Shown: piece after piece, positions 1,239 through 17,820 of the stretch
Layout: each line of letters starts with the position of its first letter
How positions within the stretch are numbered: position 1 is the stretch's first letter
Source of the DNA: Alteromonadaceae bacterium BrNp21-10
GTDB lineage: Bacteria; Pseudomonadota; Gammaproteobacteria; Enterobacterales; Alteromonadaceae
Assembly: GCA_030418115.1 (NCBI GenBank)
Contig: JAUHQD010000003.1
Location: 1 to 64,000 of the forward strand
Reading direction: 5' to 3'
Length of the DNA stretch: 64,000 nt
The notes under the pieces: model-generated
What the model was told of the DNA's origin: nothing
The model's database searches: none
The model's input: the letters and a program-made list of their open reading frames with translations, nothing else
Program-made: the position numbers and the translations under genes

Positions 1239-3962
1239 TTATAATTCCAGTTCAGTAATTAAAGTACTACGCATTTCGATGAGCGCTTTATTTGAACCAT
1301 TGTAATTATTAAGTTTTACGAACGCTGTATTTTTATCACCGGCCTTTAACAACAATTCAATATAATGTTTGAAGACCGTATCTGGAATCGTAGTTTGGGA
1401 GTCTACTTTAGCGCTGAGTACTTTAAGTGCTGATTGATAATCTTCTTGCTCTTCGAAAATTGTCGCTTTGGTATCTAATAATTCTATTTTGCTGGGTGCC
1501 AGCTTGAGAGCTTGGTTAATTGTTGTTAATGCTTCATCTGCCATGCCTTGCTCTTTGTATGCCCATGCGAGGTTGTTTAAATTTAGCCAACGTAAATCAG
1601 GGAAGTGCTCTAATAAGTACTCATAATGTGCTACCGCTGAGGCGGGTTTGGATTTGAGGTATATTTCCGCTAAAAACATTCTCATGCGTGAATCTAAAGG
1701 AAAATGTTCTAAATGTTTTTCCAATAATGTAATGGCATCATTACTTCTGTCTAAGCGTTTAAGGGCAACGGCCAGATCAAGTGCATTAGAAGTGCTTTGT
1801 TTAGCGTTGTAGCTTATTAGCAAAAAGGGTAAGGCTTGTTCATACTGCTTGGTAGCTAATAGTACTTTGCCTTCTAGTGACGAAATAGCCAAATTGCTGT
1901 TTTCTCTTTTTAATTTATCTAATGTACTTTTGGCGGCTAAAGCATTGCCACTCGCAACCTGCACCGTTGCTTGCCAATAAAGTAGCTCCATATCATTTGG
2001 CAATTGTTTTCTGGCACTGGAAATAATTTCTAAACTTTTTTGATACTCTAACCCTTGATTGTAAAGAGGGATTAGCGCGACTAATGCTTTTTTGTTGTAA
2101 GGTTGGAGTTCTAGGGCTTTTTCTAGGGCTTTAATTGCATCTTCTCTACGATTCAAATTTGCGTAATTTTGCCCTTCTAAAACTAACTTACTTAATTGAA
2201 GTTTGGGTGTATTGATAGGTGACAATCGCGTAAGGGATTCTTTGTACATCTTTTGATCGGCTAACAAGGTGGCAATGAAAAGCTGATTATCTTCGACCTT
2301 AGTGAACTCTGTTAGTGAATCTAAAAAGCTCAACATGGATTCAACATCATGACTCTTTTTAGATAATTGATAGAGCTTTATGTAGCCATTTTTGTTGTTG
2401 GGGTTATGAGTGATTAACTGTTTAGCAATATTAATTGCCTCTGGAATTTTATTTTGCTCTTCAAGCAAGGTAATTTTAAATAGCAGGCTGCCAGCGTTAT
2501 TGGGTTTAATTTCTTCTGCAGCTAAATAGGCATTTTTAGCATTTTCTGTTTGTTTTAGTTTTAAATAAATATTGCCAGCAAGAATATGCCCTAATAAGTC
2601 ATTTGGATTATTTACTATATAGGATTCTACGAGCTTTACGGCCTCTGCAGATTGGTTATTGTTTATATATTGTGAGGCAAGTATAGATGTTAAGTTTATA
2701 TCATTTGGTGATTCACTTAGTGATTTCTCTAACACATCTAATTCTGTCTCTATATTTAGTAGTTGTTTAAAAAGCGTCAGTCTTACATCATCGTTCAGTT
2801 CAGGATCAAGCTTAGATGCAAATGCTTTAGCCGAGTTAACTTGACCATCTTTATACATTTGTAAACCAATTTGCATCATTATTGCTTGCGCGTCTTCGTT
2901 TAGGGCATTGACGGACATTATTGTATTGGCGGCGCTTTCTGTATAACCCAGTCTGAGCTGAGTGGAAGAAAGTAACGTGGCTATTGTATCGTCTTGCGGA
3001 AACGCGCTTTTTAGTGTTTGAAATTCAGCAAGGGCTTGCTCGAATAAGCCTACTTGAAAGGAACTGATTCCTTTAATAAAGCGATTAGTTGGGCTTTGCA
3101 TTCCGGCATCTATCGATTTACTTGCATAGCTTAATGCTTGAGTAAAATCTTTCTCATGATAATGAATTAACGCGGCATATGAATTCCCAAGCGGGTTATT
3201 CGGGGTATTTCGCAAAATATTGGTTACATAAGTAGAGGCTTCATCATACTGCTTATTGGAGATCAAAGAGTTGGCTAGAAGAAAAGGTGTAATTTTATTT
3301 TGAGGACGGGCTTGGTGATATTGCTTTAGGAGCTTAATTGCATTTTTAAATTTACCTTCGTTACCATTTGCCATACCTAGAACTAACATTAGTTCCGGCT
3401 GGCTCGACATAGGAGGCGTTGCCTCAAAAGATGTGGTGGCTTGGTCAATGTCAGCGTTTATTAAGTGATTAATAATATTAAGAGTGTTTTCAGAATCACT
3501 CGCTTTACCTATCTGTTCAAAAGCTAACAGCGCCTCGCTGGTATTATTTTGTGCCAGAAGTAGCAGTGTCTTAAGAATTAATAGATTGTCATCGAGTGTT
3601 AAATCATATTGGTTTATTTTTTCAACCGCGCTTTCAAACTCATAGGAGAAGACATCCAGTAGCACAAGATTATTAATTATTTTTTGTTTGTCCCCCCCTA
3701 AATCTAAAAAGCGATAATACTCTTTTTCTGAACCACTGAGGTTGCCGGTTTTAAAATATAAATTGGCTAATAAAAGTCTAGCCTCAATATCGGATGGGCT
3801 TATTTGAATTAAGTTTTTTAAATCAATTTCTGCAGCACTCAGTTTTCCATTTTTAATATTATCAATTGCTAATGCTTTAAATTCATCGGGTGAATTTGGG
3901 GTACACCCACCTAAAAGTAGTAAAAGTACTGTAGAGCATAGGATTGAGTTTAATTTGTGCAT
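1239..3962 (-). CDS. prsT: PrsT, PEP-CTERM/XrtA-system TPR-repeat lipoprotein
   Basis: This 907-residue lipoprotein has a signal peptide ending in the lipobox LLGGC, so it is exported and lipidated at Cys. The rest is a long series of 34-residue tetratricopeptide repeats. Length, lipobox and repeats match the PrsT family, found only in genomes with the XrtA-type exosortase/PEP-CTERM and exopolysaccharide system. It is presumably a periplasmic or outer-membrane scaffold; its exact function is unknown. I chose the ATG at 3962, which has AAGGA at good spacing, over an in-frame TTG seven codons upstream. It is transcribed toward the PEP-CTERM gene but separated by that gene's own sigma-54 promoter. 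Confidence 0.9.
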   Translation of the reverse strand: MHKLNSILCSTVLLLLLGGCTPNSPDEFKALAIDNIKNGKLSAAEIDLKNLIQISPSDIEARLLLANLYFKTGNLSGSEKEYYRFLDLGGDKQKIINNLVLLDVFSYEFESAVEKINQYDLTLDDNLLILKTLLLLAQNNTSEALLAFEQIGKASDSENTLNIINHLINADIDQATTSFEATPPMSSQPELMLVLGMANGNEGKFKNAIKLLKQYHQARPQNKITPFLLANSLISNKQYDEASTYVTNILRNTPNNPLGNSYAALIHYHEKDFTQALSYASKSIDAGMQSPTNRFIKGISSFQVGLFEQALAEFQTLKSAFPQDDTIATLLSSTQLRLGYTESAANTIMSVNALNEDAQAIMMQIGLQMYKDGQVNSAKAFASKLDPELNDDVRLTLFKQLLNIETELDVLEKSLSESPNDINLTSILASQYINNNQSAEAVKLVESYIVNNPNDLLGHILAGNIYLKLKQTENAKNAYLAAEEIKPNNAGSLLFKITLLEEQNKIPEAINIAKQLITHNPNNKNGYIKLYQLSKKSHDVESMLSFLDSLTEFTKVEDNQLFIATLLADQKMYKESLTRLSPINTPKLQLSKLVLEGQNYANLNRREDAIKALEKALELQPYNKKALVALIPLYNQGLEYQKSLEIISSARKQLPNDMELLYWQATVQVASGNALAAKSTLDKLKRENSNLAISSLEGKVLLATKQYEQALPFLLISYNAKQSTSNALDLAVALKRLDRSNDAITLLEKHLEHFPLDSRMRMFLAEIYLKSKPASAVAHYEYLLEHFPDLRWLNLNNLAWAYKEQGMADEALTTINQALKLAPSKIELLDTKATIFEEQEDYQSALKVLSAKVDSQTTIPDTVFKHYIELLLKAGDKNTAFVKLNNYNGSNKALIEMRSTLITELEL

Positions 3963-4084
3963 TAAGATGTCCTTTTTTGGCAATATGCGATCAGCGGGCT
4001 GGCAAATTTTTAATCAATTAGCGTTAATATTTACATAGATACATTTATTTGTATAAAAAATTAATATCGGGAAAGTTAAATTGA

Positions 4085-5177: not shown

Positions 5178-6038
5178 TTAAATACCAAAAGCTTTTTTAG
5201 CTTCATGCAGGCGTTGTTGGAACTCGGGGTTCTTATGACCATTAGGGATATGGGTTTCTTGCATTTGATTTAGGTAACCATCCCAATGCATCCCTTTGGG
5301 GGCGGTAACCAATTCGCCTCGATTTAAAAGTATTTTGACCGCGTAGGCGGCAGCAATTCCCGCACTTAAAGTGCAGCCAATGATCGTTGATGGCCCTTTT
5401 TTATCATTTAAATTTAATGTACTGGGGTCAACCAAATATTGTGATTGTAGCCCTGCTGGTGCAAGGCCAAGGTAAAAACGTAAATATTGTTCTGTTTCGG
5501 ACTCGGCATCATTCATGCCGAAATATTCTTCAAAAGTCATGCCGCCGGGCATAAAGCATAAAAATGCCGTGCCCATACCTAAAGGAGCTGCTGTAATGGC
5601 CGGTATGCCTTTGGCCGCACATTGGGCGAATACTTCTCGTCTAGCATTGATGGCAAAAAAGTCCAAGCTGTCGACATACAAATCAACGCCTTCAAGAAAT
5701 TCTGTGGTGTTACTGTTGTTGATACCTGCGGGGAAACTACGAATTTTAACTTGCGGATTGACACTTTTTAGCATGTCTTCAATCACATCTAGTTTTGGTT
5801 GATCAAGGGTATTCATGGTCGCACCAATTTGGCGATTGAAGTTTTCAATTCCATATTTGTCAAAATCAGAAAGGCTAAATTTGCCAATACCAAGTCGTGC
5901 AAGTGTCATGGTGTGTACTCCGCCAACACCTCCACAACCTGCCAGCGCCACGTGTTTTGTCGCTAGGCTTTGTTGTTCTTGTTGACTAAACCAGCCAATA
6001 TTTCTGGAAAAGGCAACGTCATAATCAAAGTGCGTCAT
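5178..6038 (-). CDS. E1/ThiF/MoeB-family adenylyltransferase
   Basis: This 286-residue Rossmann-fold enzyme has the nucleotide loop GCGGVGG at about residues 33-39, the E1-type acidic strand 'SDFDKYGIENFNRQIG' with the conserved Asn-Arg-Gln, and 'YVDSLDF' further on. Family members adenylate a carboxyl group, usually the C-terminus of a ubiquitin-like protein, but some E1-like enzymes act on small molecules or amino acids. I see no CxxC zinc pair, which separates it from ThiF/MoeB proper. Cys in 'IIGCTLSAG' is a possible catalytic thiol. No ubiquitin-like or sulfur-carrier protein is encoded nearby. The gene is 11 bases after the acyltransferase gene and 22 before the nitroreductase-like gene, so it is co-transcribed with them. 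A small carboxylate is the likelier substrate. Confidence 0.85.
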   Translation of the reverse strand: MTHFDYDVAFSRNIGWFSQQEQQSLATKHVALAGCGGVGGVHTMTLARLGIGKFSLSDFDKYGIENFNRQIGATMNTLDQPKLDVIEDMLKSVNPQVKIRSFPAGINNSNTTEFLEGVDLYVDSLDFFAINARREVFAQCAAKGIPAITAAPLGMGTAFLCFMPGGMTFEEYFGMNDAESETEQYLRFYLGLAPAGLQSQYLVDPSTLNLNDKKGPSTIIGCTLSAGIAAAYAVKILLNRGELVTAPKGMHWDGYLNQMQETHIPNGHKNPEFQQRLHEAKKAFGI

Positions 6039-6049
6039 AATCGATCCAT

Positions 6050-6808
6050 CTATTGTGCATAGGGATGAAGTTTAATTTGTTCAATCAGTTGCACCTCTAA
6101 AGACTGAAACAAAGCCAGCATTTCAACATTAAATTTAGAATCAAAATTTTCTCTGGGCAAACAAAACGGCGCACGAATGCCTCGAAAGTCCATTTCTTCA
6201 CCAATCTGCTCAAAGTATAGACCAACTCGTTCCAGTCGTTTTTTAAGTCTGGGTTCCACGACAACAAACATCATGTCGTGATTACACATTTTGGCAAAGG
6301 CGATAATGCCCAAATATAAGCCTATGGCAATATTAGGAAAATTGCGGCGTTCTTCTTCTGAAAATGTACCTTCGCCTGACATATCATTAACAATAAAGGG
6401 TTGTTGTTTTTCACCCACCCGTCTTCTGAAATCTTCCGGCACAGCCAAACGCGACACTTCACCATAACCACCACTCATATAATCTTGCGGTTTAGGCATA
6501 CCTTCAAGAAGAGTTTTCTCAAAGTGATGTTCTAAAGGTAGACTTTTGTATTCATCAGCCGAAGGAGGCAATACTAAACGTACGGTCCCAGCAAATTGAC
6601 CAGTACGCTTATGGCGTAATAGTAGTGAATAGGCATATTCATCAAACTCATCGGTTTCGCATTTGGACTCTTGAGTTGGCTCCCATCCTAATTCTTCGGC
6701 ATAAACTTTATGTCGAATTTTATAACCTTCTTCGCGTAATTCCGGAGTAAGCGCAAAGACAATCTCAAAATATTCATTAAAATTTTCTGCTAAGGATGAA
6801 TTACTCAT
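6050..6808 (-). CDS. PEP-CTERM/exosortase-associated acyltransferase (FeeM-like GNAT)
   Basis: This 252-residue protein has the opening 'RxxGYKIRHKVYAEELGWEP', typical of autoinducer-synthase-like/FeeM N-acyl amino acid synthases, then 'DEFDEYAYSLLLRH' and 'FAGTVRLVLPP', the core strands of that fold. It matches the group annotated as PEP-CTERM/exosortase system-associated acyltransferases. Relatives join a fatty acyl chain from acyl-ACP to an amino acid. The ATG has GAGG six bases upstream. It is the first gene of a tight three-gene set with the E1-like and nitroreductase-like genes, which suggests an acylated product that is then activated and modified. Product and target are unknown. Confidence 0.85.
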   Translation of the reverse strand: MSNSSLAENFNEYFEIVFALTPELREEGYKIRHKVYAEELGWEPTQESKCETDEFDEYAYSLLLRHKRTGQFAGTVRLVLPPSADEYKSLPLEHHFEKTLLEGMPKPQDYMSGGYGEVSRLAVPEDFRRRVGEKQQPFIVNDMSGEGTFSEEERRNFPNIAIGLYLGIIAFAKMCNHDMMFVVVEPRLKKRLERVGLYFEQIGEEMDFRGIRAPFCLPRENFDSKFNVEMLALFQSLEVQLIEQIKLHPYAQ

Positions 6809-7909: not shown

Positions 7910-8932
7910 TTAGGGTGACACGTTGTAATAACTTTTATACCAATCTACAAATTTAGCGATACCATGATCAATGGTTGTCTTCGGTTGGTAGTTAACATCT
8001 TCTATTAATGCATCAACGTCTGCAAAGGTATCAGGAACGTCGCCAGGCTGCATTGGTAACATTTCTTTTTCGGCTGTTTTTCCTAAGTGTTTCTCTAAGG
8101 TTTCGATATAACTTAGTAAATGAACTGGATTTTGGGCACCGATATTGTATACCCGCCACGGGGCTTTGCTGTTAGCCGGATCTGGTTTTTTACCGCTCCA
8201 TTTTTCATTGCCTTGGGCTATGTGATCAAGGGTTCTTACAACACCTTCAACTATGTCATCAATAAAGGTGAAGTCACGACGATGATTACCATAATTAAAC
8301 ACTTTGATGGGGTCACCAGCTAGGATTGCTTTGGTAAACATAAACAACGCCATATCAGGTCTACCCCAAGGCCCATAGACAGTAAAAAATCGTAAACCTG
8401 TGGTGGGCAAATCAAACAAGCTGCTGTAGGTGTGGGCCATTAGTTCGTTGGCCTTTTTACTGGCAGCGTATAATGATAAAGGATGATCGACATTGTCATG
8501 CACTGAAAATGGCATTGATTCATTAGCCCCATAGACTGAGCTTGAAGAAGCATAAACCAAGTGTTTTACCTGATTATGTCGACAGCCTTCTAGAATATTC
8601 ATGAAGCCGATAATGTTACTTTCCATGTAAGCATGGGGATTTTCTAAAGAGTAACGTACACCGGCTTGGGCAGCCAAATGGACCACGCGATCAAACTTTT
8701 CTTCTGCAAACAATGTTTCCATTGCCGACTTGTCAGCTAAATCCAATTTTACGAACCGAAAAAGTTTGGCATTTCCGCACTGCTGAATTTGTTGTAAACG
8801 TCCCTCTTTTAAATTGACGTCATAATAGTCATTCATATTGTCTAGACCAACAACATGATCGCCTCTGGCGAGCAGGGACATCGTAGTGTGAAAGCCGATG
8901 AATCCGGCAGCACCAGTAACAAGTATTTTCAT
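7910..8932 (-). CDS. UDP-glucuronate 4-epimerase-type NAD-dependent epimerase
   Basis: This 340-residue short-chain dehydrogenase/reductase has the NAD loop GAAGFIG at about residues 7-13, the acidic residue in '[10 protein letters not shown]' after strand 2, and the catalytic Ser/Tyr/Lys set ('YASSSSVYG' and 'YAASKKANE'). The '[12 protein letters not shown]' segment is characteristic of UDP-glucuronate 4-epimerases (CapI/LspL type) that make UDP-galacturonate for polysaccharides. It lies 12 bases after the UDP-sugar dehydrogenase gene and is co-transcribed with it. Together they supply UDP-uronic acids, which fits the tie of PEP-CTERM loci to exopolysaccharide synthesis. Exact sugar specificity cannot be read from sequence alone. 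Confidence 0.9.
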
Positions 8933-8944
8933 TCTATGGATTCT

Positions 8945-10225
8945 CTACAAGCGAATGTCGGTGATATTCTTCGGGAAAATATACTTTAGATCATAAATAA
9001 CGCGATTGTCTTTACACAACGATAGAAGATCATTTTCGCTAAATTGCTTGAACTCATTATGTGCGACTGCCACGATAATGGCATCGTAATGTCCTGTTTT
9101 GGGTTTCTCTACGAGAGATAAACCATACTCATGCTCTACTTCTGCATTGTTTGCCCAAGGGTCATAGATATCTAAATTAACATGATAATGTTTTAATTCA
9201 GTAGCAATATCGACGACCTTGGTATTGCGGATATCGGGGCAATTTTCTTTAAACGTTAAACCGAGTAATAATACATTGGCGCCATTGACCATTATCTTTT
9301 TGTTCAACATGGTTTTAACTAACTGACCAACAACGTATTCACCCATATGATCGTTTAGGCGGCGACCAGCCAAAATGACTTCTGGGTGATAACCTAGTTC
9401 TTCGGCTTTATGGGTAAGATAATAAGGATCTACACCAATGCAGTGACCGCCAACTAAGCCTGGGCGAAATGGTAAAAAGTTCCATTTACTACCCGCAGCA
9501 AGTAACACTTCTTCGGTATCAATACCTGCTCGGTTGAAGATGATGGCTAATTCGTTAATTAAGGCTATGTTGAGATCGCGCTGGGTATTCTCGATAACTT
9601 TGGCAGCTTCAGCTACTTTAATTGAAGAGGCTTTATGAGTGCCTGCGGTAATAATACTGGAATATAAGTCATCAACCAGTGTGGCAATTTCATCAGTAGA
9701 GCCCGAGGTGACTTTTACAATATTCTCAACACGGTGCTGTTTGTCACCAGGATTAATACGCTCAGGGCTGTAGCCCGCATAAAAATCTTGATTGAATACC
9801 AACCCTGAACCTTGTTCAAGAATGGGAATACAGACTTCTTCTGTTGCGCCAGGGAAAACGGTGGACTCATAAACCACGACATCGCCTTTTTTAAGTACTT
9901 TACTAATGCTTTCACTGGCTTTTTGTAATGGGGTAAGGTCTGGTTGACGGTTTTTATCTATAGGTGTTGGTACGGTGACGATATAGAAATTACAATTGGT
10001 GAGATCTTGCAAGTTACTGGTAAAGGTTAAATGTTGAGACGCACTTAATTCGGTAGCCGATACTTCCAGCGTACTGTCTTTATCATTGTTTAATTCAGCG
10101 ATTCGCGAGCTATTGATGTCAAAACCGTGAGTATCGTATTTACGACCAAAAGCGACAGCTAAAGGAAGACCCACATAGCCTAATCCAATAATGGCTAATT
10201 TCAAATTAGACAATCTTAGTTGCAT
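8945..10225 (-). CDS. tviB: Nucleotide-sugar dehydrogenase, TviB/VipA (WbpO/WbpA) type
   Basis: This 426-residue UDP-sugar 6-dehydrogenase has the N-terminal NAD loop GLGYVGLP, the active-site Cys in '[12 protein letters not shown]' at about residue 261, the central helix with '[17 protein letters not shown]', and a C-terminal UDP-binding domain ('[16 protein letters not shown]'). The overall pattern, including '[12 protein letters not shown]', is that of TviB/VipA enzymes oxidising UDP-GlcNAc or UDP-GalNAc to the uronic acid, rather than UDP-glucose dehydrogenase. It is the first gene of a two-gene operon with the epimerase, so the pair makes one or more UDP-uronates for surface polysaccharide. 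The gene symbol rests on family resemblance. Confidence 0.87.
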
Positions 10226-10295: not shown

Positions 10296-11060
10296 ATGCA
10301 TTTTACTAAATTAACTTTTCTTATGCTTATTTGTACCTTGGCTGCTGGGGCATCGGCAAATAGCTTGCCGAAAACAGTCAAAAAGATTAAACCTTCTATT
10401 GTTGGGGTGGGGATCTATGATCCAATTGGTAGTCCCCGAAATCAATTACATGGCACCGGTTTTGCAATAGCTAATGGTTATTATATAGCGACTAATTATC
10501 ACGTTGTAGGTAAGGGGCTAAAGGGTGAATCAAAACAATCACGTATCGTTTTTATTGGAACAGGCTCTCATCCTAAGATTAGTCATGCAGAAATTGTTGC
10601 CTCAGATCCTGCACATGATCTGGCTATATTATTGATTAAAGATAAGGTGCCAGCATTGTTGCTGATGCCAGATGATTTTGTAGATGAAGGGATAGAAGTT
10701 GCATTTACCGGATTTCCAATTGGCTCTGTCTTGGGATTATATCCAGCGACCCACAAAGGACTTATTTCGGCATTAACGCCTGTTGCTATTCCTAGTATTA
10801 ATGCAAACCAATTGAGTATTGAAATGCTTAAAAGGTTACGTAAGCCCTTTTTTATATATCAAATGGATGCAACAGCTTATCCCGGCAATAGCGGTAGTCC
10901 TGTTTATACTACTGATACAGGGGAAGTTCTTGGTATTATCAATAAGGTTTTTGTGAAACAAACGAAAGAGAAAATCTTATCTGACCCAAGTGATATTAGT
11001 TATTCTATTCCGATAAAACATTTAAGAGCATTGGCAAGATCAATTTCAATTGATATCTAG
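10296..11060 (+). CDS. Exported trypsin-like serine protease (S1C type)
   Basis: This 254-residue protein has a signal peptide (cleavage near 'AGASANS', about residue 22). The chymotrypsin-fold triad is visible: His in 'ATNYHVVG', Asp in 'AHDLAILLI', and Ser in 'YPGNSGSPVY'. There is no PDZ domain, so it is shorter than DegP/DegS and is a single-domain periplasmic or secreted protease. It is divergent from the tviB-epimerase operon. It ends only four bases from the stop of the nucleotidyltransferase gene, facing the HPr-rel-A cassette. It might process the exported protein of that cassette or PEP-CTERM proteins; this is inference from position. The Shine-Dalgarno is weak. Confidence 0.86.
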   Translation: MHFTKLTFLMLICTLAAGASANSLPKTVKKIKPSIVGVGIYDPIGSPRNQLHGTGFAIANGYYIATNYHVVGKGLKGESKQSRIVFIGTGSHPKISHAEIVASDPAHDLAILLIKDKVPALLLMPDDFVDEGIEVAFTGFPIGSVLGLYPATHKGLISALTPVAIPSINANQLSIEMLKRLRKPFFIYQMDATAYPGNSGSPVYTTDTGEVLGIINKVFVKQTKEKILSDPSDISYSIPIKHLRALARSISIDI

Positions 11061-11064
11061 AAAT

Positions 11065-12171
11065 TTATTTTTCGTAATGATATCGGCCTAACAATAACGT
11101 TACTAAATATCTATATGACTTTCTTGCTAGATGGGGCAATAAAATTTTGAGGGGCATTTTTAATACGTGTCCTCGAATGAACATAATAAAACGGCTACAT
11201 CGACTCCAGTATGAATCAACTAAATCATGTGATGGTAGTATTGCAAAGTAAATGACGTTGTTGATAAATAAATCGGTCCACTTGCTATATCGGTAATTTA
11301 ATAAATGCAACGACGACTGGGCACGATGGTAATTACCCAAAGAACTTGTCGAAAAAATTTTGTCACGAAGCTTCAAGGCAATATACAAGGTATCGCTAAA
11401 GCCCAGCCTTTCACTCAATTTAATAAGCGAAGTTAAATCACTGTGTTTTTCAAGCTCCATTAATAGTAGATGGATGTCCCAAACATCTCGAAAACTCTTA
11501 GTAAAGTCTTCATTGTAAAACAGGTGGATGACGCTATGTAGAATGATTAATTCGGGGCTTAGTGTTAGGTACCCATCATTAGTGGTTTGAAGATTACTTA
11601 ACAATTCATTTTCAGGAATTAATTTACCAGAAATAGGGGGTAATAATGTGTGGTGAATGTCTAGAGTGGTTCCGCGATATATGTGTTGATAAGGGGGGAG
11701 TTCATGAGCCCACTGTCGATAGTATTGTTCATCATAATCGTCCAGCGTTTTTTCTACCCAATCATTTTGCTTAAGAATATTTTCAATTAATGATAGTTGT
11801 GAGTATGGTACTAGAATGTCAATATCCGACATAACCCGCCCGTAATGGTTTATATCCTTTCTTAATACGTATGCGGCCCCTTTGAGAAATATTGGCTGAA
11901 TATCTGCATTGCCTAAAAATTGCACCAAACTTTCGGACTCTAGATGTATTTGTTGTGTTTGCCTCTTGGCGTAAATTTCCGCTGATTCTAGATGTTTTAA
12001 CGCAAAGTGGGGGACATGATTAAGTAATAACTCTCTATCAAGTAAGTAATAAAATGATGCCAGTAAATCATTACCTCTTAATACTCTTATGAGCGTTTGC
12101 CAATTTTCTAAACTGAGTTTATGTATGTTAGAAGGCGTTGTAAAAAGTTGGATAATATTTGGCAGAGTCAT
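11065..12171 (-). CDS. Nucleotidyltransferase-family protein (NTP_transf_5-like) of the HPr-rel-A cassette
   Basis: This 368-residue protein has the nucleotidyltransferase core: 'FLKGAAYVL' at about 92-100, then 'GRVMSDIDILVP' with the two metal-binding Asp residues. A helical C-terminal half contains 'LHSVIHLFYNEDF'. This is the PF14907-like group found with HprK-related kinases. In lasso-peptide clusters such as pseudomycoidin, enzymes of this kind add sugar- or nucleotide-linked groups to a phosphorylated peptide. Its ATG overlaps the TGA of the kinase gene by four bases, so translation is coupled. A role in decorating a kinase product is inference from that precedent. Confidence 0.8.
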   Translation of the reverse strand: MTLPNIIQLFTTPSNIHKLSLENWQTLIRVLRGNDLLASFYYLLDRELLLNHVPHFALKHLESAEIYAKRQTQQIHLESESLVQFLGNADIQPIFLKGAAYVLRKDINHYGRVMSDIDILVPYSQLSLIENILKQNDWVEKTLDDYDEQYYRQWAHELPPYQHIYRGTTLDIHHTLLPPISGKLIPENELLSNLQTTNDGYLTLSPELIILHSVIHLFYNEDFTKSFRDVWDIHLLLMELEKHSDLTSLIKLSERLGFSDTLYIALKLRDKIFSTSSLGNYHRAQSSLHLLNYRYSKWTDLFINNVIYFAILPSHDLVDSYWSRCSRFIMFIRGHVLKMPLKILLPHLARKSYRYLVTLLLGRYHYEK

Positions 12172-13031
12172 ATTGTTACTAACTCATCGATGAATTTATC
12201 TAGGCCGTCGTAATTGGAATAATTTACTTTATAAAAAGTGCTCTTATCCACAACATTACAAAGAGTTTTATATCCCTGTAATCCTAATACGCTGTAATTA
12301 AAAGAGTTGTGGGCTAATTTTGCGAATCCTTCAATGCTACTAACTTGCTCTATCACAAGTTCACTTGTCGGATTGAACTTAGGGAAAATAACAGCCACGA
12401 TCTCAGCACTTTTCAATTGATTGAATGTTGTCCGATCTATTGTTTTAAGGTGTGCTATATCACCCTTATGTGTTCCATATGTGGTTGGGGAAAAAACAGC
12501 ACTATTGCTAGATTGTTTGATAATTTCAATAGATGAATTTTTTAATGATGCGGGGCGATGCATTGGTAAAACCGTATTGCTACCAATATTAATGATGGCC
12601 ATTTCATCCGAATATAATGTCCAATCTCGTAATCCAAAGTACGCTGCTAAGGTACTTTTTCCTGAGCCCGGCATCGCTGGGAATAGAATGGCCTTATTAT
12701 TTTTAACTAGCACTGATGCATGAATGAGTAAGTATGTAAAATTGTATGATGCAATACACCAATTCATGCCCCATTCAATTGATGGTAGTAAAAGACTTTT
12801 TTTTATTGGATTAAATGGGCGTTGATTATCAATATAAATACAAACTTGTGGCTTAATTATTTTTCGTAAAAATGATGTTGATTTGATGCTAAGCCAATAA
12901 TCTATTGGTTGCGTGACATTGTAATCTAAGCTGGCGTCATAAAGGTTTGATAATTGGGCGCTAATATTATCGGGACAACCTTCAATACAAAAGCGAAAAG
13001 GGCCGATATCTAAAATTGGATCATATTTCAA
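12168..13031 (-). CDS. HprK-related kinase A
   Basis: This 287-residue protein has a Walker A loop, PGSGKST, at about residues 119-125. It is followed by 'LRDWTLYSDEMAII' and 'MHRPASLK', the arrangement seen in the kinase domain of HPr serine kinase (HprK). No HPr partner is encoded nearby. The family is annotated HprK-related kinase A, in systems with a PqqD-like protein. Related kinases phosphorylate the C-terminal serine of lasso peptides (paeninodin). The start is TTG and overlaps the TGA of the PqqD-like gene as TTGA; the next in-frame Met is 88 residues in, so the TTG is accepted. The gene is visibly AT-rich. Confidence 0.83.
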   Translation of the reverse strand: MKYDPILDIGPFRFCIEGCPDNISAQLSNLYDASLDYNVTQPIDYWLSIKSTSFLRKIIKPQVCIYIDNQRPFNPIKKSLLLPSIEWGMNWCIASYNFTYLLIHASVLVKNNKAILFPAMPGSGKSTLAAYFGLRDWTLYSDEMAIINIGSNTVLPMHRPASLKNSSIEIIKQSSNSAVFSPTTYGTHKGDIAHLKTIDRTTFNQLKSAEIVAVIFPKFNPTSELVIEQVSSIEGFAKLAHNSFNYSVLGLQGYKTLCNVVDKSTFYKVNYSNYDGLDKFIDELVTI

Positions 13032-13249
13032 AATTGAATAAGCTTTTTTATCAATAGTTCATCGAGAATGACTCGTAAATTGACATTGCTTTCACTCAAT
13101 CCACGTAGCACTGAAAAATCTATTTCTCTTTTTCTATTTACTAAATTAGGATATTGACTTAGTTCACATTGAATAAAAGTAGTTGAATAATCTATTTTCG
13201 AAAAAGCGATAATGCCGCTTAAATCTGAAGGAACAAAGAGATTCTTCAT
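13028..13249 (-). CDS. PqqD-like peptide chaperone, HPr-rel-A system
   Basis: This 73-residue protein has the size and layout of PqqD/RiPP-recognition-element proteins: short strands, then a helix-turn-helix-like C-terminus ('SNVNLRVILDELLIKKLI'). PqqD-type domains bind a leader or substrate peptide and present it to modifying enzymes. The neighbours (HprK-related kinase, nucleotidyltransferase) match the family known as HPr-rel-A system PqqD-family chaperones. The ATG at 13249 has GGAA at good spacing; an in-frame TTG lies one codon upstream. The sequence is divergent, so the call rests on size, position and C-terminal pattern together. Confidence 0.72.
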   Translation of the reverse strand: MKNLFVPSDLSGIIAFSKIDYSTTFIQCELSQYPNLVNRKREIDFSVLRGLSESNVNLRVILDELLIKKLIQF

Positions 13250-13288
13250 CAATTAATTTCCAAATAAAGTAAATTTAAATGAAATTAA

Positions 13289-14029
13289 CTATCTCCACTT
13301 TCTCTTCCAACCAGTGTCACCAGTATCAGGATTTTCTTCATCTGCAGTTATCGGATCGGTTGGTGCTACTGCCGATTGGCACTCGCTACTTATTGGTATT
13401 TGATAGCTAGTACTACCTTCTGGGCTCCAAGTTGCAGTAAGTGAGTCAAAGTCTGTTGGCGCCTCATTTCCATTTCTAACGTATAGAACACCCCACATAT
13501 GCTGAGTTAGTTCATCTGCAGAGCTAAATTCTGGCGGTAACGTATAAAAGCCATAGTGGGCGTTTAAATAGAAAGCCGCTAAGTTCCATATGCCGCCAGG
13601 ATTGGCTAATGCCTGTCCTAGGTTTAGCAATGCGGACGGAATGTTCCCAGCTCCATTTGACAATCGTACGGTGGTTGAATTTATGTAACTCGCAATCTCA
13701 CATTTTACCTTGGCGATATCATCATCGGAGGCTGCGGAATAAAAACTAAATTTGCTTTGAAATGAATTACCATTCCAATTTTCGAGATCTAAGAATTTTT
13801 CCCAAAAGCCAGGTGAAAGTCCACCGTTAACGTTAGGGAAGTAACAAGTATTACTGATATTACGAGAGCCACCAGATATACCGGATGCATTACACGCGCC
13901 CCACACGGATTGTGCCGGTAAAGAACTAATTAGAAAACCTGCTGAGCTGCGTTTGATAAAACTTCTGCGCGTCTTCAGATTTGGATTTTTTTCTAAATTA
14001 GATATTTTTTTCTCAGTTTTATTACTCAT
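13289..14029 (-). CDS. Tat-exported protein of unknown function, possible HPr-rel-A substrate
   Basis: This 246-residue protein has a twin-arginine signal near residues 20-27 (TRRSFIKR), a hydrophobic stretch (SAGFLISSLPAQ), and a likely cleavage site before 'CNASG'. The mature protein is rich in Asn, Ser, Gly and aromatic residues, has a few Cys (including 'SNTCYFP' and 'SSECQSA'), and ends in an acidic segment (DEENPDTGDTG) followed by the basic WKRKWR. I recognise no enzyme motif. It is the first gene of the cassette, 39 bases before the PqqD-like gene, which makes it the natural candidate for modification. ATG at 14029 with GAGA upstream was preferred over a TTG nine codons earlier. Confidence 0.75.
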   Translation of the reverse strand: MSNKTEKKISNLEKNPNLKTRRSFIKRSSAGFLISSLPAQSVWGACNASGISGGSRNISNTCYFPNVNGGLSPGFWEKFLDLENWNGNSFQSKFSFYSAASDDDIAKVKCEIASYINSTTVRLSNGAGNIPSALLNLGQALANPGGIWNLAAFYLNAHYGFYTLPPEFSSADELTQHMWGVLYVRNGNEAPTDFDSLTATWSPEGSTSYQIPISSECQSAVAPTDPITADEENPDTGDTGWKRKWR

Positions 14030-14411
14030 ATTTTTCTCAATCTTTAAGACACACAACGAGGACTTACTTTAGTTAGTCTTTAAATACTAGCAAAGCAAAA
14101 ATTAGGCCGTAATTTAAGCGTTTGAAATTTAAGTGTTTTTTTTAAATTATTTTTAACAGTGTAAAATATTTCGACAAGTTAATAAACATTCATCATATTT
14201 CATGGAAATAGAGTTATTACCTATTAGATTCTTTAAGTACTATCAAGTCAACTTTGTAAGAAATCATAGATGAATAATTCATTAAATTAAGTTGTATGTT
14301 GGCTTGGTGTTAGGATTTTAATAACTCATGTAGGCAAATCCGAGTCTTAATGGCAAACTGAACCATAATCTTATTCCACCATAAGCAGCCTAGGAAGACG
14401 AAGGAGTCAGC
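14030..14411. other. Divergent AT-rich intergenic region between HPr-rel-A cassette and prsKR
   Basis: This 382-base stretch must carry the promoters of both the Tat-protein cassette (minus) and prsK (plus). It is strongly AT-rich with long A and T runs (for example around 14130-14155). I found no sigma-54 element, no tRNA and no convincing small gene. The only firm site is the prsK ribosome-binding site AAGGAG at 14401-14406. Confidence 0.6.
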
Positions 14412-16457
14412 ATGCTTGCCGAAATTGGCTATGCAGTAAGTGCGTTAGGGTATTTGCTGCTGTTTTTATTATTTCTTACTGTTAGAAAAACGGGGTTACC
14501 TAAAAAGCTGCTTATTGCTGGCGTGTTGGTCAATCTTGTCGCTAGTATTTTCTACGCAGTGCACCAATGGTTTCCATCTTCGTTACCCTCCATGATGCTT
14601 TTAGAAAGTTCAAAGTCGTTAATATGGCTAATATTTATCGCATCATGCTTAAAGGGCAGTCATAACTCATTGTTGAGTATGCTCAAGCAGCCAGTCAATT
14701 TGGTAATTATAAGCTTGCCCTTGCTGGCAATCGGCGCAGCAAATATTCCACTATTATTCGCAGATGAATACAAGCAATGGCAGTTCTTGCTACATACTAT
14801 TATTAACCTTGAAATATTAGTGTTGTTAGAAACCTTCTATCGCCAAGCTGACCAAGAAAAGTGGGCTTACAAGCCATTGGTTATAGCGCTAGGTGGAGTC
14901 GCATTATTTAACTTTGTAATGTTTTCCGAAGCCTCAATGATTACTAATATTGACCCGTTATTATGGGAAGCTCGAGGCTATATCTACGCCATCCTTATAC
15001 CATTTTTAGTAATAGCCATTCGGCGCATTAAAATTTGGGGTATTGATATTTTCGTGTCTCGTGAGGTGGTTCTCCACAGCTCGCTGTTGGTTGTTGCTGG
15101 AGGCTATTTGTTCGTCATGGCGTTAGCTGGTTATGCTATCAAGCTAATTGGCGGTAATTGGAGCCATGTGATCCAAATTGTTTTTGTTTTCTTATCGTTA
15201 ACGTTAATGGTTGCTCTTTTTTTATCTAATCAGTTTCGAACCAAAATTAAAGTGTTTATTACCAAGCACTTTTTTGCTAATCAATTTGATTATCGTGAAG
15301 AATGGTTAAAACTCACACAGATTTTGGATAATCACGAAGGTCAAACCGATGATCATTATTACACCGCGACACTTAGCTTGGTAAATTCTATCAACTGTCG
15401 TGCAGGGTTGTTGTTAAGGCTTAACCAACAGGAATTGCAGTGTGTGGCCAATGTAGATCACGACAACCTCAATAATGTCGATGCTGAATTACTCCAACAA
15501 TTGCTACCCTTTATTCGTGAAAGGCAATGGATCATCGATATAGCCCAGCTTAGGGCTCGGCCTTTCGATTATGAAGGTGTTAAAGTCAATCATGCATTAT
15601 TAAACGGTTGTTCTTTTCACCTGATTTTACCCATTTTTAAGCAAGATGAATTGTGGGGGCTGGCACTTGTGCAAGACGAAGAAGGTCAGCGACAATCACT
15701 TAATTGGGAATTACGCGACTATTTAAAGGTTGTTACGACTCAGGTAGCCAGCTTTATTTTTCAACATGAAGCCTCTAAAGAGCTTGCGGAGAATGCTCAG
15801 TTTGCTGCGTTTAGCCGGATGTCAGCTTTTGTACTACATGATTTAAAAAATGTGTTAGCGCAGATAGACTTGATTTTATGCAATGCCGAGCAGCACAAGC
15901 ATAACCCTGAATTTATTGAGGATACTTTTGAAACCTTGGTACATACCAAGGCACGTATGGAAAAAATGCTCAAACAGTTATCCGATAAAAAAGATGTGAC
16001 CAGCGATCATATTCGGCATTTCTCCATCGCGGCATTACTACAAGAGGTGGTAGAAAAACGTTGCATGACGTCTCAGCCAATACCGCAACTACAAACAGAA
16101 CAGGATTGTGAGCTTAAACAGGATGCAGATAAACTTGGAAATGTACTGTATCATCTGATTAATAATGCGCAGCAAGCAACTGAAAATAATGGTGAAATCA
16201 TAATTGCCACGCAAGTGCATGCTGATAATAATGTGGTCGAGATCAGTATTGAAGATAATGGCTGCGGCATGAGCGGCGAGTTTATTCAGGACCGCTTGTT
16301 CAAACCTTTTGATACTACTAAAGGGAATGCGGGTATGGGCATAGGCGCCTATGATGCGAAGAGTTATGTAGAAAAAATTGGTGGTCAGTTAAGTGTATGC
16401 AGTAAGGTAGGCGAAGGCAGTCGCTTTACACTATTTATACCAACGGGGATGTATTAG
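14412..16457 (+). CDS. prsK: PrsK, membrane histidine kinase of the PEP-CTERM system
   Basis: This 681-residue sensor kinase has a long hydrophobic N-terminus (about 1-285, some eight or nine membrane spans). A GAF-like region follows at about 300-440. The transmitter has phospho-accepting His476 in 'FVLHDLKNVLAQ' and an ATP-binding domain with the N box (HLINNAQQA), 'EDNGCGMSG' and 'GMGIGAY'. Architecture and length match PrsK of XrtA/PEP-CTERM systems. It phosphorylates PrsR, encoded four bases downstream, and the pair controls PEP-CTERM and exopolysaccharide genes from sigma-54 promoters. The ATG has AAGGAG five bases upstream. The sensed signal is unknown. Confidence 0.92.
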   Translation: MLAEIGYAVSALGYLLLFLLFLTVRKTGLPKKLLIAGVLVNLVASIFYAVHQWFPSSLPSMMLLESSKSLIWLIFIASCLKGSHNSLLSMLKQPVNLVIISLPLLAIGAANIPLLFADEYKQWQFLLHTIINLEILVLLETFYRQADQEKWAYKPLVIALGGVALFNFVMFSEASMITNIDPLLWEARGYIYAILIPFLVIAIRRIKIWGIDIFVSREVVLHSSLLVVAGGYLFVMALAGYAIKLIGGNWSHVIQIVFVFLSLTLMVALFLSNQFRTKIKVFITKHFFANQFDYREEWLKLTQILDNHEGQTDDHYYTATLSLVNSINCRAGLLLRLNQQELQCVANVDHDNLNNVDAELLQQLLPFIRERQWIIDIAQLRARPFDYEGVKVNHALLNGCSFHLILPIFKQDELWGLALVQDEEGQRQSLNWELRDYLKVVTTQVASFIFQHEASKELAENAQFAAFSRMSAFVLHDLKNVLAQIDLILCNAEQHKHNPEFIEDTFETLVHTKARMEKMLKQLSDKKDVTSDHIRHFSIAALLQEVVEKRCMTSQPIPQLQTEQDCELKQDADKLGNVLYHLINNAQQATENNGEIIIATQVHADNNVVEISIEDNGCGMSGEFIQDRLFKPFDTTKGNAGMGIGAYDAKSYVEKIGGQLSVCSKVGEGSRFTLFIPTGMY

Positions 16458-16461
16458 GGTG

Positions 16462-17820
16462 ATGGAAAAAGTACTGGTTGTTGACGATGATTTAGGTATT
16501 CAAAAACAATTAAAATGGAGTTTTGCGGATTACGAAGTCTTTTTTGCTGATGATCGTCAAAGCGCCATCAATCAATTACGTCGCCAAGAGCCAAAGGTTG
16601 TCACTCTGGATTTGGGTTTGCCGCCGGATCCTACCAATGCCAGTGAAGGTCTTAAGACTTTAGCGGAAATTATCTCCCTTGCCCCCAATACTAAGGTGAT
16701 TGTGGTTACCGGCAATAACGATAAAGAAAATGCCCTTAAAGCTATTACTATTGGTGCTTATGATTTTTATCAAAAGCCAATTGATTCTGAAACCATTAAA
16801 GTTATTGTTAATCGCGCAATAAATTTATATGACCTAGAAGAAGAAAATCGTCAATTAATTCAATCGTCTTCTACCAGCGATAATCTCATTGGTACTAGTG
16901 AGAATATTGTTAAGGCCAGTCGTATGGCTGAGAAGATCGCCAAAACGGATATATCCACTTTATTACAGGGTGAAAGTGGAACAGGTAAAGAAGTCTTCGC
17001 GCGAAAAATTCATGAAAATAGTGACCGTTGTAATAAGCCTTTTATTGCCATTAACTGTGCCTCTATTCCAGATAACTTATTGGAGAGTGAACTCTTCGGT
17101 TATGAACGTGGGGCCTTCACCGGCGCTAATAAAACCACTAAAGGTAAAATTGAGTGTGCTCAACAAGGTACATTATTCCTTGATGAAATTGGCGATATGC
17201 CCATTAGTTTACAGGCTAAACTCTTGCGCTTCTTGCAGGAGCGTGTAATCGAGCGCATTGGTGGTCGCCAAGAAATTCCCGTGGATATCCGGGTGATCTG
17301 TGCAACACACCGAGATTTATCCACTATGGTTGCCGAAGAAACTTTTCGTGAAGATTTATATTTTCGTCTTGGCGAAATAACTATTCATATTCCGCCATTA
17401 CGGGAGCGAGATAACGATGTTATTTTGCTCGCTCGTGCTTTCCTCAATAATTACAACACCGAATATAATCAAAGTCTGAAAGGTTTTTCCGATGATGCGG
17501 TGGCAGCTATGTTGCAACACCGGTGGCCAGGTAATATTCGTGAGTTACAGAATAAATTGAAATCAGCCATTATTATGGCCGAAGGTAATGTGGTTACTGC
17601 AGAAGATTTAGGTTTACATGTTAATGACGAAAAGGTCAGTAAACCCATGCTCAATTTGCGCGAAGTCCGCGAACAAGCTGAAAGCAATGCTATTCGTGCA
17701 GCCTATCAAATGAGTGATAAAAACATGTCGCGTACTGCCGAATTACTGGGTGTTACGCGACCAACATTGTATTCATTAATTGATAAATATCGACTGGATG
17801 AATTGAAGTCGGAGAGTTAG
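16462..17820 (+). CDS. prsR: PrsR, sigma-54-dependent response regulator of the PEP-CTERM system
   Basis: This 452-residue NtrC-type activator has a receiver domain with the acidic cluster VVDDD and phospho-acceptor Asp50 ('VVTLDLGLPP'). Its AAA+ domain has Walker A GESGTGKE, the sigma-54 contact motif GAFTGA, and Walker B 'LFLDEIGD'. A C-terminal Fis-type helix-turn-helix ('MSRTAELLGVTRPTLYSL') completes it. It matches the PEP-CTERM-box response regulator family and is immediately downstream of its kinase gene. An expected target is the consensus sigma-54 promoter at 1135-1150. A GTG one codon upstream of the chosen ATG is an alternative start. Confidence 0.93.
   Translation: MEKVLVVDDDLGIQKQLKWSFADYEVFFADDRQSAINQLRRQEPKVVTLDLGLPPDPTNASEGLKTLAEIISLAPNTKVIVVTGNNDKENALKAITIGAYDFYQKPIDSETIKVIVNRAINLYDLEEENRQLIQSSSTSDNLIGTSENIVKASRMAEKIAKTDISTLLQGESGTGKEVFARKIHENSDRCNKPFIAINCASIPDNLLESELFGYERGAFTGANKTTKGKIECAQQGTLFLDEIGDMPISLQAKLLRFLQERVIERIGGRQEIPVDIRVICATHRDLSTMVAEETFREDLYFRLGEITIHIPPLRERDNDVILLARAFLNNYNTEYNQSLKGFSDDAVAAMLQHRWPGNIRELQNKLKSAIIMAEGNVVTAEDLGLHVNDEKVSKPMLNLREVREQAESNAIRAAYQMSDKNMSRTAELLGVTRPTLYSLIDKYRLDELKSES

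Follow-up and report, generated by a model that had tools for sequence, protein, structure and literature searches.

On which molecule does an HPr-rel-A cassette act? The question is raised by positions 11065-14029 of a 64,000-nucleotide stretch of the Alteromonadaceae bacterium BrNp21-10 genome (the whole stretch is called the window here), where four minus-strand open reading frames (ORFs) encode a protein with a twin-arginine translocation (Tat) signal, a PqqD-like protein, an HprK-related kinase A and a PF14907 nucleotidyltransferase. A preliminary description of this DNA had four genes in one direction, the last three overlapping by four bases each, and the ORFs confirm it: the PqqD-like and kinase genes share four bases, as do the kinase and nucleotidyltransferase genes, and the Tat and PqqD-like genes stand 36-39 bases apart. 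A single match to the kinase family occurs in the host genome (4.2 Mb, 33 contigs).

The answer that we favor, with modest confidence, is that the Tat protein is the substrate of the cassette. A terminal serine would be phosphorylated and decorated further in the cytosol, and the protein would then be exported. Three things are established here: the linkage of the Tat gene to the cassette, the conservation of serines in its product, and the conservation of the enzymes' active sites.

Linkage of the Tat gene to the cassette

Profile search places the window kinase in TIGR04352 (HprK_rel_A, NCBIfam), at 261.8 bits against a cut-off of 200, as its earlier assignment to HprK-related kinase A had supposed. 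Kinases above this cut-off occur in 60/398 genomes of a phylum sample, in 100/246 genomes of the host's family, and in 0/14 control genomes. We assembled 131 loci, comprising 60 from the phylum sample over the cut-off (the window included), 3 weaker ones, 8 named ones and 60 from the host's family. Counts over 128 loci exclude three weaker HprK relatives (L040, L041, L042); the stretch after the window (L093) and three further weaker kinases (L094-L096) never entered the counts.

From 114 first-pass candidates in these same loci we built a hidden Markov model (HMM) of the Tat signal. At 118 of the 128 loci it matches a gene that lies within 1.3 kb upstream of the kinase and shares its strand, 117 times over 15 bits. 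These loci span the host's class and beyond. The best of the other HMM matches there score 30.4 bits (the oppositely oriented Tat gene of L078) and 12.4 bits. Among the ten loci without an HMM match, two (L066 and L078, the latter on the other strand) have a Tat gene by eye, and two (L039, L097) offer just 59 and 21 bases of upstream sequence. Two more, L046 and L081, have kinases that overlap the preceding gene by 4 bases and lack a Tat or PqqD match upstream; these kinases possibly serve another substrate. Leaving aside the genes of the PqqD-like protein, the kinase and the nucleotidyltransferase, every gene cluster within 8 kb is far less constant than the Tat gene.

The same association is seen across 246 genomes of the host's family. 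We searched these at E<1e-4 with A1, a 40-row profile of the type A Tat proteins described below, which detects the window Tat protein, itself one of the 40 rows, in the host genome at E 1.3e-33. Kinase and Tat protein are both present in 99 genomes and both absent from 145; one genome (G596) has the kinase only and one (G539) the Tat protein only, with its match at a contig end. Fisher's test gives p 1.9e-67, a statistic that ignores shared descent. In all 99 co-occurring genomes the two genes lie on one contig, 195-948 bases apart, and 65 of these genomes contributed no row to A1. Six more genomes have weak A1 matches of 17 to 22 bits that resemble general Tat signals, and in the family scan a second strong Tat relative never turned up at a distance from a kinase. 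The scan covers 101 kinase places over the cut-off, 67 examined as loci and the others by distance alone. In one genome two cassettes occur (L187, L188), and a separate Tat protein accompanies each. Outside the genome sample, four plasmid records match the kinase, and the two examined (Vibrio alfacsensis, Sphingomonas parapaucimobilis) have an upstream Tat gene annotated as 'hypothetical protein'. The proposed tie between cassette and Tat protein thus holds in 99/100 kinase genomes of the family. Because the Tat gene lies upstream in 118/128 loci and co-occurs with the kinase in family genomes, its product is no chance neighbor.

Conserved serines at one end of the Tat protein

The signal of the window Tat protein (RRSFIK...VWGA) was recognized by eye. 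At E<=1 neither NCBIfam nor Pfam assigns the protein to a family or Tat signal model, and Pfam TAT_signal matches 4 of the 40 A1 rows at E<=1, the window protein not among them; export by this route is a prediction. No PEP-CTERM sorting signal was matched on the protein in NCBIfam or Pfam. Beyond the signal, the mature parts (~88-261 residues) are almost unalignable, with a mean column identity of 16% in A1.

Against this background of divergence, a few serines stand out. In the 78 type A proteins, which include that of the window, the RR pair is present in 78/78, and the post-signal positions kept in >90% are three serines (74/78, 73/78, 74/78). The next-best mature position is an Asn (70/78), and W, L, N and A are further kept positions. 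The first two serines occur at fixed spacing and the third lies behind a gapped stretch; all are one residue closer together in the window protein and its nearest relatives (L098, L099, L194). The type A motif after the signal reads SGxxS. A looser pattern, S[GN]x1-3S, was sought within 40 residues after the signal's hydrophobic part and is present there in 74/76 type A proteins; 2000 shuffles gave it in 28 on average and never in more than 42, and the final 40 residues of these same proteins contain it in 10/76. This test omits L157 and L044, the latter labeled type A by default and lacking the motif.

Other proteins carry a serine motif near the opposite end. Type B proteins (28/28) all keep the C, W and S of a C-W-x-S close to the C-terminus, and type C proteins (n=9) all keep the C and ASLQ of C-[FY]-ASLQ. 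Overall, types B and C share C-[WFY]-x-S-[FLVI], with the serine 1 to 16 residues from the end. Two Tat fragments (L087, L193) were set aside from the type counts. The C-terminal motif is found in 0/76 type A proteins, an informative contrast with types B and C, which belong to other kinase clades. One protein that we left out of the counts, at L037, has a sequence (CIVSI) resembling the C-terminal motif. We also considered a single C-x-x-S motif shared by all types and rejected it; some type A proteins lack Cys, and the three types are kept apart for this reason.

The kinases divide in the same way. In a tree of 116 kinases, from which the loci of the two Tat fragments were excluded, one clade (99/94) unites 76 type A rows and a second (98/99) the 9 type C rows. 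The remaining two A-labeled rows are L157, whose kinase row is 11% complete, and L044, which has no type A motif. Kinase clades thus follow motif type, which agrees with adaptation of the kinases to the acceptor end and also with plain descent.

The serines could instead serve folding, assembly or signal-peptidase recognition, with the cassette modifying something other than the Tat protein. Serines beside cysteines could form a structural turn, and the view of the Tat protein as substrate itself draws on sequence and analogy. Yet the motif sits at opposite protein ends in different kinase clades, no other gene cluster apart from the cassette's own approaches the Tat gene in constancy, and strong Tat relatives were not found away from a kinase in the family scan. 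We regard this structural explanation as quite improbable.

Intact enzymes and a diverged PqqD-like protein

Both cassette enzymes look active, since their active-site residues are kept. In the kinase, H104, K125, D142 and E143 are invariant in all 126-127 kinases covering those positions; the catalytic H, K and D of HprK are retained, and the second D is replaced by E (E143). The profile of the HPr kinase C-terminal domain, PF07475 (Hpr_kinase_C), matches 11/18 scanned kinases at E<=0.1 (best 7.5e-5), the window kinase not being among them. The nucleotidyltransferase, described beforehand as NTP_transf_5-like, proves to be a PF14907 protein at 130.6 bits against a Pfam gathering cut-off of 31.2. 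Its K97, G98, R112, D116, D118 and D171 are invariant in the 114-115 enzymes covering them, and the catalytic DxD and third Asp (D116, D118, D171) are present in 114/114 covering rows. The enzyme is encoded directly after the kinase in 102/128 loci and 1.3-2.3 kb farther on in 9; ORF calls overlap heavily in 5, and it was not found in 12 (including L091 and L092, both at contig ends). PDB sequence searches with the kinase, the nucleotidyltransferase and the Tat profile returned no convincing relative, the best match being an antibody chain at E 0.017.

It is useful to compare this pair with enzymes of lasso-peptide clusters. According to two reviews (PMC9266682, PMC8498205), PadeK phosphorylates the C-terminal Ser of the precursor of the lasso peptide paeninodin, and PsmN adds hexoses to phosphoserine in pseudomycoidin, nucleotidyl transfer not being excluded. 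As in the accounts of PadeK and of PsmK/PsmN given there, an HPr-kinase homolog with H-K-D residues and a nucleotidyltransferase would act on a terminal serine of an encoded precursor. The likeness drawn in the preliminary description is therefore reasonable for the catalytic H, K and D. Unlike the lasso systems, the cassette kinase has E for the second D, the window scans gave no match to a lasso cyclase or leader protease, and the proposed substrate is a protein with a Tat signal and ~88-261 mature residues. The preliminary description had noted that no lasso cyclase is present, and none matched in NCBIfam scans of 21 ORFs >=150 aa from 227 to 28864. An AsnB-like cluster at 23/128 loci raised the prospect of lasso clusters elsewhere. 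We rejected this candidate, as the one member scanned (at L077) is an XrtA amidotransferase (TIGR03108, 916.7 bits) that scores 282.3 bits against the 525 of the lasso cyclase model.

The small protein between Tat protein and kinase had been called PqqD-like, that is, akin to the recognition elements (RREs) of ribosomally synthesized and post-translationally modified peptides (RiPPs). At E<=1 the window protein has no match among NCBIfam and Pfam models, and profiles of its counterparts miss the window sequence alone (E 1.4 and 7.3). TIGR04353 is passed by 5/5 PqqD counterparts from outside the host's family; those of L098, L100 and L195 have no match to it at E<=0.01. Since the window protein has no match either, we do not file it under TIGR04353, and the kinase is counted as a member of the named system. 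The PqqD/RRE-group homology is supported in steps, by profile-profile comparison. A profile of 28 rows including the window protein (one row, L098, being a wrong-frame ORF) matches other family members with 98.0% probability (E 2.4e-13), and those members match 45 proteins with a THx-type motif at 98.3% (E 1.2e-14). Compared directly, the 28-row and 45-member profiles give 86.8% (E 4.3e-6).

A structural model points the same way without deciding the matter. The AlphaFold2 model has a predicted local distance difference test score (pLDDT) of 86 and consists of three strands and two helices. Foldseek against the PDB returned nothing at E<=0.001. VIA-align placed 8t19, 5v1v and 5v1u, which are RREs by title, together with 5ff5 and 5why, which we take to contain an RRE, at Z 2.1-3.2 among 43 chains with Z>=2; the top row is an unrelated chain at Z 3.5. 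Because the RRE chains are interspersed with unrelated ones, these matches prove nothing alone. The name PqqD-like is thus favored by gene position, by the profile-profile steps and by a confident fold model, and the family-model search proposed earlier gave no match for the window protein. Across loci, a PqqD-type gene was picked in 123/128, an upper bound because wrong ORFs were picked in some (e.g. L098, L055, L068, L071).

Genomic surroundings and a proposed order of steps

Table 1. Features of the cassette and of its surroundings in the window
Feature	Positions	Strand	Remarks
Tat-signal protein, proposed substrate	13289..14029	-	246 aa; ATG at 14029; ORF extends to TTG at 14056
N-region and twin-arginine signal of the Tat protein, MSNKTEKKISNLEKNPNLKTRRSFIKRSSAGFLISSLPAQSVWG	13898..14029	-	Read from sequence; cleavage by signal peptidase likely after VWG or VWGA
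Ser motif CNASGISGGS, immediately following the signal	13865..13894	-	C46 to S55; candidate phospho-acceptors S49, S52, S55
PqqD-like / RRE-like small protein (putative)	13028..13249	-	73-74 aa; ATG start, TTG at 13252; position, overlap, profile-profile chain, AlphaFold2
HprK-related kinase A	12168..13031	-	TTG start; TIGR04352; H104, K125, D142, E143 as HprK-type active site
PF14907 nucleotidyltransferase	11065..12171	-	GR...SDIDILV and D171
Trypsin-like (PF13365) protease	10296..11060	+	Pfam; N-terminal signal; H, D, S motifs intact by eye
UDP-GlcNAc 6-dehydrogenase, TviB type	8945-10225	-	Sugar-nucleotide gene, context; NCBIfam/Pfam
NAD-dependent epimerase family	7910-8932	-	Sugar-nucleotide gene, context; NCBIfam/Pfam
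Exosortase-associated acyltransferase	6050-6808	-	PEP-CTERM context
PrsT	1239-3983	-	PEP-CTERM context
PrsK histidine kinase and PrsR response regulator	14412..17820	+	PEP-CTERM context

The cassette had been described as tied to the PEP-CTERM locus. This stands in the host's family, where a strong exosortase (>196 bits) is found in 98/100 cassette genomes against 30/146 others, and is weaker phylum-wide. There, any exosortase match occurs in 31/60 cassette genomes against 50/338 others (Fisher p 2.6e-9), so that the link is real, though not obligatory. The cassette shares its neighborhood in the host's family with the XrtA/PEP-CTERM system (PrsT, PrsK, PrsR, acyltransferase); it differs in that the Tat protein has no PEP-CTERM match and that 29/60 cassette genomes of the phylum sample have no exosortase.

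Several other observations concern these surroundings. A PepA-like flocculation-associated PEP-CTERM protein at 227-1084 falls below its cut-off (55.2 of 80 bits). A ThiF/E1-like protein (PRK08223) lies at 5178-6038, within the PEP-CTERM neighborhood, and has a relative within 8 kb in 23/128 loci. In 12 loci, a 566-aa tetratricopeptide-repeat (TPR) protein family, weakly PrsT-like, directly follows the kinase (L048:10181-11881 and relatives). The cassette of the Vibrio alfacsensis plasmid pVa1 (L195) adjoins phosphonate-use genes. Farther along the window, the ORF at 43995-47018 matches an ammonium transporter in its N-terminal part and GGDEF-EAL in its C-terminal part, apparently a fusion of Amt with a cyclic di-GMP enzyme.

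The surrounding genes could point to another role for the enzymes, namely to build or prime an exopolysaccharide or other small molecule, with the Tat protein as an unmodified periplasmic partner (acceptor, adaptor or enzyme). Sugar-nucleotide and exosortase-system genes are regular neighbors, a glycosyltransferase-like cluster (by eye) occurs at 27/128 loci, and the AsnB-like cluster with its XrtA amidotransferase member could be counted on the same side. Moreover, the gene overlapped by the kinase at L046 and L081, where no Tat protein was found, resembles by eye a sugar-nucleotide dehydrogenase or a glycosyltransferase. A PqqD-type partner and an HprK-type kinase nevertheless suggest a polypeptide substrate, the Tat protein accompanies the kinase within 8 kb at more loci than any polysaccharide cluster, and the conserved serines would require a separate reason. 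We therefore judge the small-molecule explanation unlikely.

The protease gene next to the cassette bears on a further possibility, that the Tat protein gives rise to a shorter secreted peptide, a protease cutting off the modified end of the protein as the active product, as in RiPPs. An RRE-like protein belongs to the cassette, the modification motif is close to the very end of the mature protein, and the trypsin-like protease occurs within 8 kb in 53/128 loci and in 97/100 cassette genomes of the family. It is also present in 76/146 family genomes without the kinase; because of this we rejected it as a cassette member and treat it as locus context. The mature part, with kept positions of its own, also exceeds the needs of a leader or carrier. 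A peptide precursor is in our estimate very improbable.

Returning to the Tat protein as substrate, we infer its identity as such, the order of steps, their chemistry, the role of the PqqD-like protein, export and final function along the following lines. The cassette would yield one modified secreted protein. In its precursor, an N-terminal region and a twin-arginine signal would be followed by a mature part that bears the acceptor serines on a terminal tail; this tail would immediately follow the signal in the window and its relatives and lie near the C-terminus in other clades. The PqqD-like protein would bind this precursor and deliver it to the HprK-type kinase, which would phosphorylate a tail serine using ATP; the PF14907 enzyme would then put a nucleotide or sugar unit onto the phosphate. 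ATP and nucleotide sugars are cytosolic. For this reason modification should precede export, and Tat would therefore fit better than Sec as the route. The exported product would reach the zone where the neighboring exopolysaccharide and exosortase genes act.

A number of points weigh against this proposal. First, co-inheritance is no proof of substrate status, and the candidate modification is predicted from sequence. No Tat gene was found at L038, L046, L055, L080 (1364 bases upstream available), L081 and L086, and all of these save L038 also lack a PqqD match. Second, the acceptor motif varies in place and sequence between clades, so that one kinase family must serve two kinds of tail, and the agreement between clade and motif may reflect descent alone. 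Third, the serine counts have weak points: the third type A column depends on the alignment across its gapped stretch, and the presence of the C-terminal motif in 37/37 type B and C proteins is circular, because these types were recognized by the motif itself. Finally, the window PqqD-like protein is strongly diverged, and the AlphaFold2 model of the Tat protein (9 rows) has a mean pLDDT of 40.1, from which serine exposure is not readable.

A bolder version, which we consider doubtful, gives the PqqD-like protein a second task. With the Tat signal region as its leader, it would proofread export by this route, and the translocase would receive the protein only once the two enzymes had attached a sugar or nucleotide to a terminal serine through a phosphate. 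TorD, DmsD and NapD are redox-enzyme maturation proteins for Tat substrates. As with these, a small partner would bind a Tat substrate until it is matured and then release it for export; the PqqD-like protein differs in fold and in maturation step, and its binding of the Tat signal is hypothetical. If true, this version would link quality control in Tat export with leader recognition of the RiPP type, and would establish phosphoglycosylation of folded secreted proteins in bacteria.

In the openly licensed PMC literature (preprints and most subscription papers lie outside this scope), we found no paper that names the cassette system or gives its function. With the HPr-rel-A system of NCBIfam, the window cassette shares a kinase over the equivalog cut-off and a PqqD-type protein and nucleotidyltransferase in the same order. 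It differs in that NCBIfam names cover the kinase (TIGR04352) and the PqqD family peptide chaperone (TIGR04353), whereas the scanned Tat proteins match no NCBIfam family above cut-off and the window PqqD-like protein misses TIGR04353. Overall, for a cassette named by NCBI, whose function is not given in the literature searched, there is now a candidate substrate with candidate acceptor residues, and the proposed order of steps can be tested. If the proposal is true, secreted proteins are widely modified in Pseudomonadota by enzymes of a kind familiar from lasso peptides, with completion before Tat export and, in many of these bacteria, in the company of exosortase and exopolysaccharide genes.

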